Of a DNA stretch of 50,620 nt, positions 3,803-50,620 are shown one piece after another. The stretch is taken from the NCBI RefSeq assembly GCF_009741925.1, contig NZ_WPCC01000024.1, positions 1 through 50,620 of the forward strand. The letters run 5' to 3'. This DNA is from Natronomonas sp. CBA1123 (GTDB lineage: Archaea > Halobacteriota > Halobacteria > Halobacteriales > Haloarculaceae). The position numbers were made by a program, and so were the translations under genes. How positions within the stretch are numbered: the stretch's first letter is position 1; the number at the start of each line of letters is the position of its first letter. Below the pieces are notes generated by a model. The model was not told where the DNA came from. It ran no database searches and was given only the letters and a program-made list of their open reading frames with translations.

Positions 3803-4616
3803 CTACTCCAGTTTCCCGAGTGCGGTGAAGAACTCGAGCGGCGGGCCCGCGATTCTGACGGGGTCGTCGGCCCGGCGCAGTCGAACGTTCGTCGGCGGGT
3901 CGACCCGCTCTCGTGTTCGGCCGTCGGCGACGACGAAGGCGTGGTCGGCCTCCTCGACGCGAACGACGATGTCGGCGTCCAGCGGCGCGGCGAGGGACGG
4001 CATCGGCCCCTCCGCACACATCTCCGTGACGACGAGCGTCGCCACGTCGGGATGGACGAGCGGCCCCCCTTCGCTGAGGTTGTACGCCGTCGACCCGGTC
4101 GGCGTCGACACCAACACGCCGTCGGCTCGGCTCCCCGAATACAGCTGTCCATCGACGCGCACCTCGATACCGACACCGTTGTTCCGGCCGCGCTGTGGCC
4201 CGAGAATCGACACCTCGTTGACCGCTGCCGGCAGCGACCACCCCCTCGCCTTCGGCCTGGACTTGCGGCAGTTCCTGGTACGTTCGGTCACCGCTCTCGA
4301 ATCGTTCGACCTCCCGCTTGACGGTCTCGACAGCCTCTTCGGGCGAAACCGCATTGAGGAAGCCGACTTCGCCGAGATTGACGCCCATGACGGGCGTCGG
4401 CGTCACCTCGCGGGCGGCAAACAGGAACGTTCCGTCGCCGCCGATGGAGACGACGAGGTCGCAGTCGACGAACTCGCCGACGGCCATCCCATCGCGGTCG
4501 AGGCTTGCCGCCGTCGCCGCGTCCAGCGAAACCGAGGCGTCGACGTTTCGGCGTATCCGGTCGGCGAGCTCTGCGGCCCGTGGATTGTCCTGTTGGGCAA
4601 CGACGCCGACGTGCAT
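3803..4616 (-). pseudogene. nadK: NAD kinase, disrupted by a +1 frameshift in a C5 run
   Basis: The N-terminal half starts at the ATG at 4616 (MHVGVVAQQDNPRAAELADR) and carries the GGDGTFLFAAR nucleotide-binding motif. The C-terminal half, in another frame down to 3803, carries NEVSILGPQRG, VLVSTPTGSTAYNLSEGG and the end of the fold. NAD kinase phosphorylates NAD(H) to NADP(H). The frames join at the C5 run at 4241-4245 (+ strand): with four Cs the reading would be EGEGWSLPAAVNEVS, exactly the conserved sequence. Corrected length is 270 residues, normal for the family. Nothing else is degraded, so a sequencing error is more likely than a dead gene. A TTG at 4643 would add nine residues but has less support. 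Confidence 0.85.
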
Positions 4617-4730
4617 CGGCGGTGCTTCGCCACCCGACGACAAAAAGCCCCACGGACTGCGATTCGACGGGTAACATTAACGTTGTAGCGAAATAACACG
4701 CTGATGTATGCCTGAGTCGCGGGGGCGAAC

Positions 4731-9071: not shown

Positions 9072-9597
9072 TTACTCGATGGTGAACGTCGTTTCGGCGG
9101 TCAGCCCCTTGTCGTCGGCGTCCGGGACGTTGACCCGAACCGCCAGTACGTACTCTCCGGGGGGCTGCGGGCTCCCAGCGTTGGGCAGACTCTCGGAACC
9201 GTTGGGACCACGACCGCTTGAACGTCTTCGTCTCCGAGCGCGAAAACCGAAAGAGGCTGTCCTCAGTGGGGTGGTTCGTGACGCGACTGGCCTCGTCGAT
9301 GCCGTCGATGCTCCACGTCCATCGGACCGGCGAGTCGGTTCGCAGCGCGATGGGGAACGGAACCCGGTTCCGGAACGATACGCGAAAGCGAACCGGCTCG
9401 TCAGTCTCGTATCGCTGTCGGTCAGTTTCGACCGAAACGCCGACCGCTCGCGGTCGGAGTCGCATCGGAACGAAGGCGTGGCTGGCCGATGCCCAATCGA
9501 TGGGTTTCCGCGACCGTTCGTCGTCGGAGGTTCGCTTGGGAGCGTAGGGGTCTTCGTCGTCGTACTCCAGCGCCCGCGATTCGTAGATGCGGCGCAT
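9072..9597 (-). pseudogene. Conserved haloarchaeal protein (DUF7974-type), broken by a +1 frameshift in a G6 run
   Basis: Two frames together encode one protein of about 174 residues. The first runs from the ATG at 9597 (MRRIYESRALEYDDEDPYAP) through an Ig-like beta segment (VGVSVETDRQRYETDEPVRF, then RTDSPVRWTWSIDGIDEA) to RFRESAQRWEPAAP. The second continues GEYVLAVRVNVPDADDKGL and ends AETTFTIE. Removing one G from the G6 run at 9159-9164 (+ strand) restores AAPGEYVLAV. The predicted fold is a beta-sandwich with no catalytic motif. I link it to the family called DUF7974 from memory. The gene is 45 bases downstream of dppF on the same strand. The break is a homopolymer change with no other damage, so it may be a sequencing error. 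Confidence 0.7.
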
Positions 9598-9642
9598 CCA
9601 CTCGCAGTAACACTGCAGCGACCAAAAGCGTACGGACCGCGG

Positions 9643-34900: not shown

Positions 34901-34916
34901 TTTAGACTAGTCTAAA
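34901..34916. promoter_or_regulatory. Perfect 16-bp palindromic operator (TTTAGACTAGTCTAAA)
   Basis: TTTAGACTAGTCTAAA is its own reverse complement. It lies 53 bases upstream of the znuA start and 54 bases upstream of the divergent RNase H start. Its TTAGnCTAGnCTAA core resembles the motif recognised by DtxR-family metal regulators (consensus near TTAGGTTAGCCTAA), so it is probably the binding site of a metal-sensing repressor. This link is inferred; no regulator gene is adjacent. Confidence 0.65.
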
Positions 34917-34968: not shown

Positions 34969-36034
34969 ATGACGTATCACGAAACCGGCGACAGCGACCG
35001 GCCGGTCCTCACCCGTCGGCAGGCGGTCGCCGGCGGCGGCGGACTGTTAGCCGCCGGCCTCGCCGGCTGCCTCGGCGAGGCGAGCGCACCGGGGGGGCAC
35101 CAGCGACGACGGGCCGGTCGCGGTCGCGTCGTTCTTCAGTTTCTACGATTTCGGCCGGAAAATCGCCCGCGAGACGCCGATAGAGGTCCGCAACCTGATT
35201 CCGACCGGCCTCCACGGCCACGGCTGGCAGCCGAACTCCAGTATCACCCGAGAGGTCATCGAGGCGGACGCGTTCGTCCACGTCGGAGAGGAGTTCCAGC
35301 CGTGGGCCGACCGGACGATTCAGACGCTGAAAGACGACGGCATCGACACGCAGCTCATCAACGTCCGGGAGGGCGTCGAGTTGGTCGACCTCGCGGCGAG
35401 TCTCGACCGCGACGAGGAAGGCGTCGGCGAGAACCGCGGCAAGGACCCCCACTTCTGGCTCGACCCCCAGCGAGCCAAGCAGTCCGTCGACAACATCACC
35501 GAGGGGTTCGTCGAACTCGCTCCCGACCACGAGGCGACGCTTCGCGACAACGCCGAGACCTACAAGAGCGACGTACTCGACCGCATCGACGGCGACTACG
35601 AGGCGATATTCGACGCCGCGACCCGGGACGTGGTCCAGTTGGCCGCACACAACGCCTTCCAGTACATCGGGACGCGCTACGGCGTCGAGATGCGGCCGCT
35701 CGTCGTCAATCTCGCAGCCAGCGGCGACGTGAAACCCACCGACATCAGGGAGGCCAAACGCGTTATCGAGGAAAACGACATCGAGTACGTCGGCGCCGGC
35801 GTCTTCGAGACCCGTCGACCCGCCAAACAGCTCATCGCCGAGACGGACGTATCGGCGTACTTCCCGGTGACGCCCTACGCCGGCGTCCGCGAGGAGTGGG
35901 TCGAAAACGACTGGGGCTACGAGGAAATCGCGTACAACATCAACATGCCGACGTTCGAAGTCGTCCTCGGAAACAAAGCGCCCGAAGACGCCGGCCCCGA
36001 CGGCTGGGCCGAGGAGTGGAGGAACTTCGAATGA
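34969..36034 (+). pseudogene. znuA: Metal ABC transporter substrate-binding protein (ZnuA-like), broken by a +1 frameshift in a G7 run
   Basis: The first frame (from the ATG at 34969) reads a twin-arginine/lipobox start (RRQAVAGGGGLLAAGLAGC, Cys near residue 35). The second continues SDDGPVAVASFFSFYDFGRK and runs to the stop at 36032. Removing one G from the G7 run at 35091-35097 joins them into 354 residues with the metal-binding segments LHGHGWQPNSS, PHFWLDP and AAHNAFQYIG. It should bind Zn or Mn outside the cell and deliver it to ZnuB/ZnuC. No other damage is seen. Its last bases (ATGA) hold the next start. Sequencing error is the likeliest cause of the break. Confidence 0.85.
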
Positions 36035-36777
36035 CGACCGAGGGACCCGTCGCTGAACTCGACGACGTGACGTTCGGCTACACCACGACGCCGGTCGTTG
36101 AGGACATCTCCCTTCGCATCGAACAGGGCGAGTACGCCGCAATCGTCGGACCGAACGGCTCCGGGAAGTCGACGCTGATGCGTCTCATCCTCGGCCTGCT
36201 CGAACCAGACAGCGGTTCGGCCCGGCTGTTCGGCGAACCCGCCCATCGCTTCGACGAGGGGTCCCGAGTGGGCTACGTCGCCCAGCAGGCCAGCGCCTCC
36301 AAGGAGATGCCCATCACCGTCCGAGAAGTCGTGAAGATGGGCCGGTTCCCCCACGTCGGCTACGGCCTGCTGTCGGCGTCGGACTGGGAGGTCGTCGACC
36401 GCGCGCTCGACGTCGTCGGAATGAGTGCCTTCGCCGACCGCCCCGTGACCCAACTCTCCGGCGGCCAGCGACAGCGCGCCTTCATCGCACGAGCGCTGGC
36501 CGGTGAAGCCGACCTGCTCGTCCTCGACGAACCGACCGTCGGCGTCGACGCCGAATCCGTCGACGCCTTCTACGCACTGCTCGAAACGCTCAACGACGAC
36601 GGCATCACCGTCCTGTTGGTCGAACACGACCTGCGTGCGGTCACCGACCACGCCGAACGGGTGGTCTGTCTGAACCGCCGGCTCCGCTTCGACGGCCCGA
36701 CCGAGGAGTTCGTCGACAGCGACGCCCTCGCGGAGACGTTCGGAACGGCCGTCAGCGCCGTTGGTGAGAGCGGATGA
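36031..36777 (+). CDS. znuC: Metal ABC transporter ATP-binding protein (ZnuC-like)
   Basis: A 248-residue ATPase with Walker A GPNGSGKST, Q-loop VGYVAQQ, signature LSGGQRQRAFIARAL, Walker B LLVLDEPTVGVD and H-loop VEHDL, all intact. It is of the Mn/Zn/Fe subfamily, as shown by its neighbours. Its start overlaps the previous stop (ATGA) and its stop overlaps the next start, so the three genes are one translationally coupled operon. The metal is probably zinc or manganese; sequence does not decide. Confidence 0.9.
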   Translation: MTTEGPVAELDDVTFGYTTTPVVEDISLRIEQGEYAAIVGPNGSGKSTLMRLILGLLEPDSGSARLFGEPAHRFDEGSRVGYVAQQASASKEMPITVREVVKMGRFPHVGYGLLSASDWEVVDRALDVVGMSAFADRPVTQLSGGQRQRAFIARALAGEADLLVLDEPTVGVDAESVDAFYALLETLNDDGITVLLVEHDLRAVTDHAERVVCLNRRLRFDGPTEEFVDSDALAETFGTAVSAVGESG

Positions 36778-37799
36778 CGAAGAGTCTCGCGTTCATCGTC
36801 GCACAGTCGAGCCCACTCGACGCCGTCCTCGCGCCCGTCTACTGGCTGTTGGCGCAGTGGTCGGAGTTCATGTTCGATGTGGCCCGGTGGACCGGACTGG
36901 GACTCCTGCAGTACCAGTACATGCACCGGGCGGTACTCGTCGGACTGTGTATCGGCGTAATGGCGCCGCTCATCGGGACGTTCCTCGTCCACCGTCAACT
37001 GGCGCTCATCGGTGACGCCCTGGCCCACACCGCCTTCGCCGGCGTCGCCGTCGGTCTGTTCCTGAACGCCGTGTTGGATTTCGGCGTCTCCCCGTACCTC
37101 ACTGCCATCATCGTCGCGATGATAGCGGCGTTGAGTATCGAACTCATCTCGGAGGTGACCGACGCCTACAACGACGTGTCGATGGCCATCGTCCTCTCGA
37201 CGGGGTTCGCGCTGGGGACGACGCTCATCAGCCTCAACGCCGGCGGCCTGTCGGTCGGCATCGACCAGTACCTCTTCGGCAACCTCGCGACCGTCTCCCG
37301 TGAGAACGCGGCGATACTGCTCGTGTTGTTCGCCGTCATCGTCGGCACCATCGCACTCACCCGAAATCAACTGCTGTACGTCACCTTCGACGAAACCGCA
37401 GCCGAAGTGGCGGGCATTCCCGTCAACTGGTACAACCGGACGATGGTCGTCCTCACGGCGCTCGTCGTCGTCGGCGCGATGCAGATAATGGGCGTCATCC
37501 TCGTCGCGGCGATGCTGGTCGTCCCCGTCGCGGGGGCCGCACAGGTCTCCCGGAGTTTCACCGGGTCGCTGCTCTCGTCGGTCGTCCTCGCGGAGTTGGC
37601 CGTCGTCGTCGGTATCGGGCTGTCGTACTACGGCGAGGCGACCGCAGGCGGCGTCATCGTCCTCGTCGCCGTCGCCATCTACGTCGCCTGTATCGTTCTC
37701 GGACGCCTTCGAACCGCGCTCGGAGAGGAGTCGGCGGCGGAGACCGCACGCATCGACGCCAGCGGCGCCGACTCGAAGGCCGAACCGACGACCGACTGA
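36774..37799 (+). CDS. znuB: Metal ABC transporter permease (ZnuB-like)
   Basis: A 341-residue permease of the ABC-3 family. About eight to nine helices are visible, including VLVGLCIGVMAPLIGTFLVH, GDALAHTAFAGVAVGLF and ATAGGVIVLVAVAIYVACI. A polar acidic tail follows residue 310. The GDALAHTAFAG segment after the first helices and the MAIVLSTGFALG segment are family marks. It forms the membrane part of the znu importer; its start overlaps the znuC stop by 4 bases. Confidence 0.9.
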   Translation: MTKSLAFIVAQSSPLDAVLAPVYWLLAQWSEFMFDVARWTGLGLLQYQYMHRAVLVGLCIGVMAPLIGTFLVHRQLALIGDALAHTAFAGVAVGLFLNAVLDFGVSPYLTAIIVAMIAALSIELISEVTDAYNDVSMAIVLSTGFALGTTLISLNAGGLSVGIDQYLFGNLATVSRENAAILLVLFAVIVGTIALTRNQLLYVTFDETAAEVAGIPVNWYNRTMVVLTALVVVGAMQIMGVILVAAMLVVPVAGAAQVSRSFTGSLLSSVVLAELAVVVGIGLSYYGEATAGGVIVLVAVAIYVACIVLGRLRTALGEESAAETARIDASGADSKAEPTTD

Positions 37800-37847
37800 C
37801 TCCGACGACCGGAACACACATCGGACGGGGGGGCTGTACGTCGGCAC

Positions 37848-44253: not shown

Positions 44254-44271
44254 AGTGCCCGGGGAGGGCTC
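44254..44271 (-). repeat. 18-bp direct duplicate of the tRNA-Met 3' end (att-like)
   Basis: AGTGCCCGGGGAGGGCTC at 44254-44271 is identical to 44379-44396, which covers the last acceptor/T-arm bases of tRNA-Met plus two flanking bases. The copies are in the same orientation, 125 bases apart. Repetition of a tRNA 3' end is the usual footprint of integrase-mediated insertion. The segment between them (44272-44378) has no gene and includes GCTCGCTTCGCT (44289-44300), a fragment of the intergenic repeat seen elsewhere. Confidence 0.6.
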
Positions 44272-47353: not shown

Positions 47354-50300
47354 TCAGCACTCCGACCAGCCACAGGACTCACACGTCTTGCAGCCCTCGG
47401 AGTAGTACAGCGTCATACTGCTGCACTCGGGACACTCGGGGGATTCTCCGGCGTCGATGAGCGACTGCGTGTCGGAGGCGTCGTCGTTCGGCGAGGCCTT
47501 CGACTCCATCTCGGGGGCGGCACTCGCCGCACCGCCGTCGGTTTCCGGCGCTTCGCGCGGTTCTCGCTCGGCCTGCTCTTCGGCCTGCTGGGCCGTCTGG
47601 TCGAGCGTGGCCTGGTCGGGATAGGCCTTGTCCACGTCGCCGTCGAGATACCGGCGCATCGCCGTCCCGATGGCGTCGGGGATGGAGTTAATCTGCTCGC
47701 CTTTGTCCCAGGCGACCTTCGGCGACCGAATGCCCTGCAGTTCGTCGGCGATTTCTTCGGGGTCGACGCCCGAGCGCAGCGCCGTCGAGATGGTCTTCGC
47801 CAGCGCCTCGGTGAAGGAGGCGGTGAAGCCACCGGAGTTGCCGATGTTGGCGAACAGTTCGAACGGCCGCTCGCGAGCGGGGTCCTCGTTGATGTTGACG
47901 TACAGTTTGCCGTAACCGGTGTCGATGCGCTGGGTGACGCCGTGGAGCACGTCGGGACGCGGCTGTTTCTCGCCGAACTCGCCCGACTCGATGTCGATTA
48001 GCGACTCCACGTCGGACTCGAGTGCCGTACGGACCTCTTCGTTGTCGAGGAAGCCCTCGATGCCGCCGAACAGTTCCTCGATGTTCTCGACGATGGCCGC
48101 CGCGGCCTCGTCTTCGTTCAAGTCGGAGAACTCGGCGTTCTTCGCACGGGTCGTCAACACCTGCTTCGAGCGGGTGCCGTCGCGGTAGTAGGTGACGCCC
48201 TTCCCGCCGTGTTCGTAGATGTACTCGAACACTTCCTTCGCGTCCTCGACCGTGGAGTCGTTGGGCGCGTTGACCGTCTTCGAGATGGCCGAGTCGACGC
48301 CCTTCTGACAGGCGACCTGCACGCCGGCGTGTTCCTTCGCCGAGAGGGCGCCGGTCGTCACGAACAGTTCGCCGACCGCGTCGGGAACCGTCGAGAGCCC
48401 GTCGACGCCGTCGAAGGCGTTGTTCGCCATCTGCTCTTGGGCCTCCTGCTTGACGGCGTCGACGTCGATGTCGTTCTCCTCCAGCACGCGGAGGAAGTAG
48501 TCGTCGAACTCCACGAGCATCTCGTCGCCCTGGACGTCGTCGGAGACGTTCTTGTAGAAGGCGACGTTGTAAATCGGCTCACAGCCGCCGGTCGTGTTGC
48601 CAATCATCGACGTCGTGCCGGTCGGCGCGATGGTCGTCGTGTTGTGGTTGCGGATGGCGAAGCCGTCTTCCCACTCGTCGGCGTCGAGCCCGGTCTGTTT
48701 CTCGAACCACTCGCGGTACTCGGTGGGGTTGGCGTACTTGGAGTTGTCCCACTCGTCGAAGGCACCGCGCTGTTCGGCCAGTTCGTGGGAGGCCCACTTC
48801 GAGCCGTGGTTGATGTGAGTCATCAACTGGCGGGCGACCTCGTTGCCCTCCTCGCTCCCGTAGCGGATGCCGAGTTGGATGTACAACTGCGCCAGCCCCA
48901 TGATGCCGAGGCCGATTTTCCGCATCTCGCGGACTTTCTCCTCGATTTTCGGCACCGGGAAGTCCGACATCGTGACGACGTTCTCGAGGAACCGCGTCCC
49001 GAGTTCGATGCGCCGGTCGAACTCCTCGAAGTCGATGGCCTCCTCGAGGAACGCCTCGACGGCGGCCTCCGTCGAGTCGTACTCGTCGGCGTGTTCGGCG
49101 TGCCAGACGCGCCAGTCGGGCGTCTCGAGGTCCGCTAGCGTCGAGAGGTTGATGTGACCGAGGTTACAGGCCTCGTACTCCTCGAGCGGCTGTTCGCCAC
49201 AGGGGTTCGTCGCGAGGATGCGGTGGTCGGGGTGTTTCTCCACGTCGAAGGAGTGCTGTTTGTTCACCCGTTCGAGGTAGATGACGCCCGGTTCACCGTT
49301 CTCGTGGGCACCCTCGACGATGTGGTTCCACAGTTTCTCGGCGGGGACCGACAGCACCTCGCCGACCTCGACGTGTTCGCCCAGACCGAACATGTCGTAC
49401 AGTTCCTTCGTCTCGGGGGTGGCGACGTGGGGTTCGCCGGTTCGGGGGTTCGTGAACGTGAACTCCTCGCCGTTTTTCACACAGTCCATGAACTCGTCGG
49501 TGATGCCGACGGAGATGTTGAAGTTCGAGAGGTGGCCTTCGACGGCGTTGCGGAGGTGTTTGGGGACACGACCCTCGTCGTCGATGAGTTCGCGGGCCTC
49601 TTCGAGCGCTTCGGCGAAGGAGTTGTGCGTGAAGTCGTCGGGGTCGTTGAGCCGGAGCGTCTCGGCGAGGGAGACGTCCTTGTTCTTCGCGTGGAGGAAC
49701 TGAATTACGTCGGGGTGTGAGACGCGCATGACGCCCATCTGGGCGCCTCGGCGGGCACCACCCTGCGCGATGGTCTCACACATCTGGTCGTACGTTCGCA
49801 TGAACGTAATCGGGCCGCTGGCGATGCCGCCAGTGGAGCCGACGGCGTCGCCGTAGGGTCGAAGCCGCCAGAAGGCATACCCCATGCCACCGCCGCTCTG
49901 GAACACCTGTGCGGCCTCCTTTGCGGTCTGGTGGATATCGTCGATGTCGTCCTCCGGGGAGTCGACGAAACACGCCGAGAGCTGCTGGAGTTCGTCGCCG
50001 GCGTTCATCAGGGTCGGGGAGTTCGGCATGAAGGAGAGCATCTCCATGGCCTCTTGGAACTCCGCGGCTTTCTCCTCGACGTGGCTCCGGATGTCTTCGG
50101 GGAGTTCGGGGACCAGCGTCTCGTAGGCGAACTTGTTGACGTTGTAGATGGAGAGCTCCGTCTCGGCTTCGTCACCGACCGAAACGCCCTTGCCGAACAC
50201 TTCCTCGGCGAGTTCGTCGCGGCGCGGGTGGTCGGGTTTGAGTTGCTCCGGCGTGACCGTCACCTCGACATCGCGTTTCTCGGCCTCGAAGACGGCCTCG

Positions 50301-50503
50301 GCGAGGGCGATGTTCTTGCCGACCCGCTCGAAGAGGTCCTCCTGCTGTTCGACGGGGTCGCCGTTGGCGTCCTTCCGGAGATAGCGCGCCGGCAGGATGT
50401 TGTGATAGGCGTTGCCGGTGAGGCGCTCCTCGAGCGTGTCGCCTTCGGTTCGCTTCACCGGAAGCGTCAGTTCGTCCGCGGAGAGAGGTCCCGCCCCGGA
50501 CAT
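47354..50503 (-). CDS. nrdJ: Adenosylcobalamin-dependent (class II) ribonucleotide reductase
   Basis: A 1049-residue reductase that makes dNTPs from NDPs or NTPs. It carries the N-terminal ATP-cone-like region, LQQLSACFVDS (a redox cysteine near residue 177), GGARRGAQMGVM, the catalytic finger loop NPCGEQPLEEYEACNLGHIN (Asn-Cys-Glu triad, about 430-437), TGTTSMIGNTTGG and a C-terminal cysteine-rich zinc-ribbon (GCKTCESCGWSEC). No small subunit (NrdB) gene is near, as expected for the B12 type. No intein is visible in the window. The ATG at 50503 follows a GTG at 50506 that would add one residue. Confidence 0.94.
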   Translation of the reverse strand: MSGAGPLSADELTLPVKRTEGDTLEERLTGNAYHNILPARYLRKDANGDPVEQQEDLFERVGKNIALAEAVFEAEKRDVEVTVTPEQLKPDHPRRDELAEEVFGKGVSVGDEAETELSIYNVNKFAYETLVPELPEDIRSHVEEKAAEFQEAMEMLSFMPNSPTLMNAGDELQQLSACFVDSPEDDIDDIHQTAKEAAQVFQSGGGMGYAFWRLRPYGDAVGSTGGIASGPITFMRTYDQMCETIAQGGARRGAQMGVMRVSHPDVIQFLHAKNKDVSLAETLRLNDPDDFTHNSFAEALEEARELIDDEGRVPKHLRNAVEGHLSNFNISVGITDEFMDCVKNGEEFTFTNPRTGEPHVATPETKELYDMFGLGEHVEVGEVLSVPAEKLWNHIVEGAHENGEPGVIYLERVNKQHSFDVEKHPDHRILATNPCGEQPLEEYEACNLGHINLSTLADLETPDWRVWHAEHADEYDSTEAAVEAFLEEAIDFEEFDRRIELGTRFLENVVTMSDFPVPKIEEKVREMRKIGLGIMGLAQLYIQLGIRYGSEEGNEVARQLMTHINHGSKWASHELAEQRGAFDEWDNSKYANPTEYREWFEKQTGLDADEWEDGFAIRNHNTTTIAPTGTTSMIGNTTGGCEPIYNVAFYKNVSDDVQGDEMLVEFDDYFLRVLEENDIDVDAVKQEAQEQMANNAFDGVDGLSTVPDAVGELFVTTGALSAKEHAGVQVACQKGVDSAISKTVNAPNDSTVEDAKEVFEYIYEHGGKGVTYYRDGTRSKQVLTTRAKNAEFSDLNEDEAAAAIVENIEELFGGIEGFLDNEEVRTALESDVESLIDIESGEFGEKQPRPDVLHGVTQRIDTGYGKLYVNINEDPARERPFELFANIGNSGGFTASFTEALAKTISTALRSGVDPEEIADELQGIRSPKVAWDKGEQINSIPDAIGTAMRRYLDGDVDKAYPDQATLDQTAQQAEEQAEREPREAPETDGGAASAAPEMESKASPNDDASDTQSLIDAGESPECPECSSMTLYYSEGCKTCESCGWSEC

Positions 50504-50506
50504 CAC

Positions 50507-50620
50507 TCGGCCCCCCGTGGTGAAAGTAGGTCGGTTCCCCTTACAGTTCCGTCAGCAGCGAGATGGGTGGTGCAAATCGTCATGGTAGCGTGTTCGTGCT
50601 GAATGCCATATGACCCGGCG
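50507..50620. other. Upstream region of the reductase gene
   Basis: No CDS is supported in the last 114 bases. The region contains a C6 run (50510-50515). An ATG at 50610 on the plus strand begins a frame that leaves the window after four codons, too short to assign. No clear TATA box stands out for the reductase gene. Confidence 0.3.

Follow-up and report, generated by a model that had tools for sequence, protein, structure and literature searches.

A one-base frame break at a G7 run in a haloarchaeal metal-binding lipoprotein gene, probably a homopolymer-length error of the assembly

Organization of the locus

The window analyzed here is a stretch of 50,620 nucleotides from Natronomonas sp. 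CBA1123 (assembly GCF_009741925.1, contig NZ_WPCC01000024.1), which corresponds to contig C44 of a source genome (G000) of 3.45 Mb in 89 contigs. Its two closest relatives, Natronomonas gomsonensis YCN60 (G003) and G002, served for the comparisons, with one genome per species. The window harbors an operon for the uptake of a metal (Table 1), whose genes are arranged as in an ordinary metal ABC importer: the neighbors with PF00005 and PF00950 matches (36031-37799) provide the genomic context expected of a ZnuA/TroA-type binding protein. In agreement with the initial annotation, the first gene codes for a metal-binding protein – its PF01297 match scores 145.8 bits against a curated cut-off of 29 – and the reading frames of the ATPase and the permease are intact. 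At the level of individual families the assignment is less specific; the binding protein scores under the cut-offs of the NCBIfam equivalogs AztC, MntC and ZnuA, and the top matches of the ATPase (AztA) and the permease (AztB) are likewise under theirs.

Table 1. Features of the window, with positions counted from its first nucleotide.
Feature	Position	Strand	Evidence
NAD kinase gene, broken at a C5 run by a single base that both relatives lack	3803-4676, break 4241	minus	PF01513/PF20143 in the G002 ortholog
Gene of a 189-residue protein, extra base at a G6 run near the 3' end compared with both relatives	9072-9642, break 9164	minus	no Pfam match
Perfect 14-bp palindrome TTAGACTAGTCTAA, candidate DtxR-type metalloregulator operator of the operon	34902..34915		TTAGN6CTAA match
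Start of the lipoprotein gene: Tat RR motif, hydrophobic stretch, lipobox AGC, beginning of the Gly linker	34969..35097	+	translation
G7 run, site of the frame break	35091..35097	+	sequence; G002 and G003 orthologs one base shorter
ZnuA/TroA-type metal-binding domain, in another frame, to its stop codon	35099..36034	+	PF01297, E 2.2e-42; 311-residue open frame
ABC transporter ATPase, intact frame, start overlapping the preceding stop	36031..36777	+	PF00005, E 4.2e-33
ABC-3 family metal permease, intact frame	36774..37799	+	PF00950, E 1.5e-60

The frame that opens with the ATG at 34969 encodes MTYHETGDSDRPVLTRRQAVAGGGGLLAAGLAGC followed by LGEASAPGG, in which a Tat RR motif precedes the AGC lipobox with its cysteine codon at 35068-35070. 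Inspection of the sequence shows that the run reads exactly GGGGGGG. This assembly retains the RR motif, the hydrophobic stretch and the lipobox cysteine, but in a frame other than that of the PF01297 domain. A single orthologous protein of G003 aligns with the window in two pieces and two frames (residues 1-46 and 45-357), whose junction is the G7 run, and aligns with G002 in one piece; the earliest ATG, GTG or TTG of the domain frame 3' of the run is the TTG at 35381, about 94 codons inside the domain. Because the two frames meet at the G7 run and the domain frame has no usable start, a true one-base frame break between signal and domain is confirmed for the assembled sequence, located in the Gly-rich linker after the lipobox as had been claimed. 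A mis-chosen start codon as the cause of the break is ruled out for the same reason. As assembled, the frame of the ATG at 34969 meets its first stop at 36775, giving an Arg-rich read-through of 602 codons that joins the ATPase frame; automatic annotation of the contig would list a fusion protein of 602 residues or treat the binding protein as lost.

Orthologs in related genomes

In the longer alignments, the identity of the window amounts to about 94% with G003 and about 92-94% with G002; for the DNA of the gene alone, the values are 96% and 95%, respectively. The domain after the break shares 97.8% protein identity with Natronomonas gomsonensis YCN60. Of the 311 codons following the run, 22 differ synonymously from G003 and 7 with a change of amino acid, the numbers relative to G002 being 29 and 6; distributed over codon positions 1/2/3, the changes number 5/2/24 and 6/1/29. 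No sign of pseudogene decay was found in these codons in the comparison with both relatives. Purifying selection is evident on both sides of the run, and the substitution pattern shows that it acted on the domain until very recently. With 97.8% protein identity and mostly synonymous change, the break is either very recent or not real.

Among the 20 genomes examined from the genus, the source genome included, ten others contain a long match to the ortholog. The ortholog set comprises 80 of the 140 loci of a contig scan; altogether 91 loci were examined, of which 89 were retained after removal of two duplicates. Among the matches listed, signal and domain share one uninterrupted frame at all 88 other loci, the window locus being the sole exception; the 88 include L067, which the lipobox pattern missed, yet its LTGC is in frame. 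Near the junction, the longest G/C run is 7 solely at the window locus and 6 at three of the 89 loci, again among the matches listed, and no run of at least 7 occurs at any of the 88 others. At the site of the run itself, G003 has GGGAGG and G002 has GGGGGAG, both one base shorter than the window and neither a pure run. The operon resembles haloarchaeal importers of the ZnuA/TroA type (cluster A-I) in its domain, gene order, overlapping start and stop codons and Tat lipobox, but differs from these relatives in a gene that is out of frame only in the assembled sequence of this genome.

Other one-base breaks and their frequency

The break in the lipoprotein gene has counterparts on the same contig. 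Both the NAD kinase gene and the gene of the 189-residue protein carry an extra base in a short G/C run (Table 1), and five extra-base events (six bases), absent in both relatives, cluster around the start of the ribonucleotide reductase gene (47354-50506, minus strand); this cluster covers 61 bases (50481-50541) and is separated from the contig end by about 80-140 bases. The NAD kinase break is weakened as proof of inviability: the relatives possess three PF20143 members, one of which is cut by a contig end in G000 and one of which was not found there. On this contig, one NAD kinase would seem to have no intact gene, and the main value of these observations is one of caution.

A second G7 run of the window, intergenic at 37827-37833, likewise exceeds its counterpart in both relatives, GGGACG, by one base. 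Elsewhere in the same genome, two runs of eleven G/C bases, at L129 (G000:C9:86906-86916) and L131 (G000:C9:165317-165327), exceed the reported G7; the counterpart of L129 in G003 is C7 followed by AA. For slippage or an assembly error, these two runs are stronger candidates than the G7.

How often such events are private to one genome was estimated from six stretches, i.e. the window and 200 kb of contigs C9, C14 and C16, with about 178 kb aligned in all three genomes; over about 104-107 kb of coding sequence, a gene was scored when its frame is open in two of the genomes but shifted in the remaining one. The raw counts of private frameshifted genes are 7/101 in G000, 2/107 in G003 and 1/109 in G002. 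On review, the break at 44271, which lies 5' of the likely start Met, was left out, as was the one case of G002, located before the likely start Met (leaving 0), while the two cases of G003 were retained, though one of them resembles an antisense ORF. The reviewed counts are 6/101 in G000 versus 2/216 in the relatives (Fisher p 0.014), or 5/100 versus 2/216 (p 0.03) when the G7 event itself is omitted; this assembly thus has more one-base breaks in conserved genes than its relatives. Taken alone, the window has 3/33 shifted genes versus 0/69 (p 0.03), and the remaining stretches 3/68 versus 2/147 (p 0.18). A similar picture emerges from private length changes of 1-2 bases in G/C runs of at least 4: the window contains 8 in G000 and 1 each in G003 and G002, and all six stretches contain 16, 5 and 7. 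Outside the window, 8 of 18 such changes belong to G000 (p 0.22), and both extra and missing bases occur. Hence, the excess of frameshifts and run changes in G000 is concentrated in the window and not significant outside it.

Two further approaches were not retained. G7 runs are not rare in G000 (166 overlapping matches, or 48 per Mb), but eight further genomes from the genus range from 10-98 per Mb; because high counts also occur in these, including a one-contig genome, the number was rejected as proof of error. A codon-usage test of the reading frame at 43 G/C runs of at least 7 in G000 (40 sampled and three from the window) and at 20 in G003 was discarded as uninformative because spurious antisense ORFs had entered its training set; the sequences of G002 and G003 were compared directly instead.

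Interpretation of the frame break

We consider it likely, by a modest balance of the evidence, that the operon encodes an ordinary, functional importer and that the assembly consensus gives the G7 run one base too many, through a homopolymer-length error. The organism would then possess a working ABC importer for zinc or manganese, whose lipid-anchored binding protein would be in frame in the cell. A sequencing error was one of two options named in the initial annotation, and the other one-base breaks in G/C runs of the contig speak for it. As the excess is concentrated in the window and not significant outside it, an assembly error is likely but not proven; both an error at this very base and a working transporter are what we infer. 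Against an error stands the observation that the pure G7 also differs from the relatives by a substitution, so that real divergence can be involved. A comparable case is the published genome of Clostridium autoethanogenum, with about 240 homopolymer errors and false frameshifts (PMC4687164): there, too, one-base changes in short homopolymers left conserved genes apparently broken, but bases were missing from a PacBio consensus, whereas the window has mainly extra ones. A literature search for Natronomonas draft genomes sequenced by Ion Torrent returned no fitting paper.

What competes most seriously with an assembly error is a real and recent one-base slippage at the G7 that inactivated the lipoprotein in the sequenced strain, which we regard as possible, though doubtful; the frameshift may have been fixed in culture. 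G runs are natural slippage sites, and the conservation of the sequence indicates only that the break is recent. Loss of the lipoprotein could be tolerated because a second ZnuA-type protein exists, namely an intact PF01297 paralog with its own Tat/lipobox start at G000:C18:7773-8621. However, equivalent breaks elsewhere on the contig affect a gene as central as NAD kinase, and the cluster of extra bases at the contig end resembles a consensus error of the same type.

The other option of the initial annotation, phase variation, fared worse, and we judge it improbable. According to this model, reversible slippage in the tract would toggle the lipoprotein while the ATPase and the permease are still expressed; if true, phase variation by a homopolymer would have a notable example among the archaea. 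A change of one base in the run does move the entire domain into or out of frame, and the run is close to the 5' end of its gene, a position in which A/T tracts have been proposed as general switches, the headline results of that study concerning poly(A) and poly(T) rather than poly(G) (PMC2831843). The locus also resembles bacterial homopolymer contingency genes in that a run of G occupies the 5' part of a gene for a surface lipoprotein; unlike theirs, its tract is short and not conserved, no length variants of it were seen, and none of the relatives compared is out of frame. Seven bases are at the short end for homopolymer switches. Conservation of the tract is lacking even at 95-96% identity, none of the 88 other loci (among the matches listed) is in an off-state or has a run of 7 or more, and the same contig has further one-base breaks in G/C runs. 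In favor of switching, a linker G7 also follows the lipobox in L194 (G002:C1:612456-613283), the second ZnuA-type lipoprotein of G002; but it is in frame there, and such runs therefore arise simply from Gly codons, through which, as these sequences suggest, G7-like runs come and go. A variant of the model, in which the tract arose recently in this lineage and slippage toggles the lipoprotein with the second intact ZnuA-type protein as a back-up, appears very unlikely. Among the papers listed by a targeted literature search, none on homopolymer phase variation in haloarchaea was found.

A ribosomal shift of frame at a slippery run of G is conceivable in principle, but that programmed frameshifting or an internal start yields the protein from the G7 sequence is scarcely credible, since the relatives need no shift and the domain frame offers no start codon ahead of the TTG noted above.

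Upstream palindrome

The palindrome lies 53 bases upstream of the start codon of the lipoprotein gene and resembles the operators of the DtxR family. A scan for promoters of the sigma-70 type, a type not expected in archaea, gave no match. Haloferax volcanii is reported to have three regulators of the DtxR type, Idr, SirR and TroR (PMC11349517); a literature search for a TroR/Haloferax motif paper found none. TTAGN6CTAA has only one match in the window, where 0.04 are expected. Among the matches listed, it occurs upstream of the ortholog in 76 of the 89 haloarchaeal loci versus 0.16 expected from mononucleotide shuffles, and the consensus across orthologs is TTAGAYNNRTCTAA.
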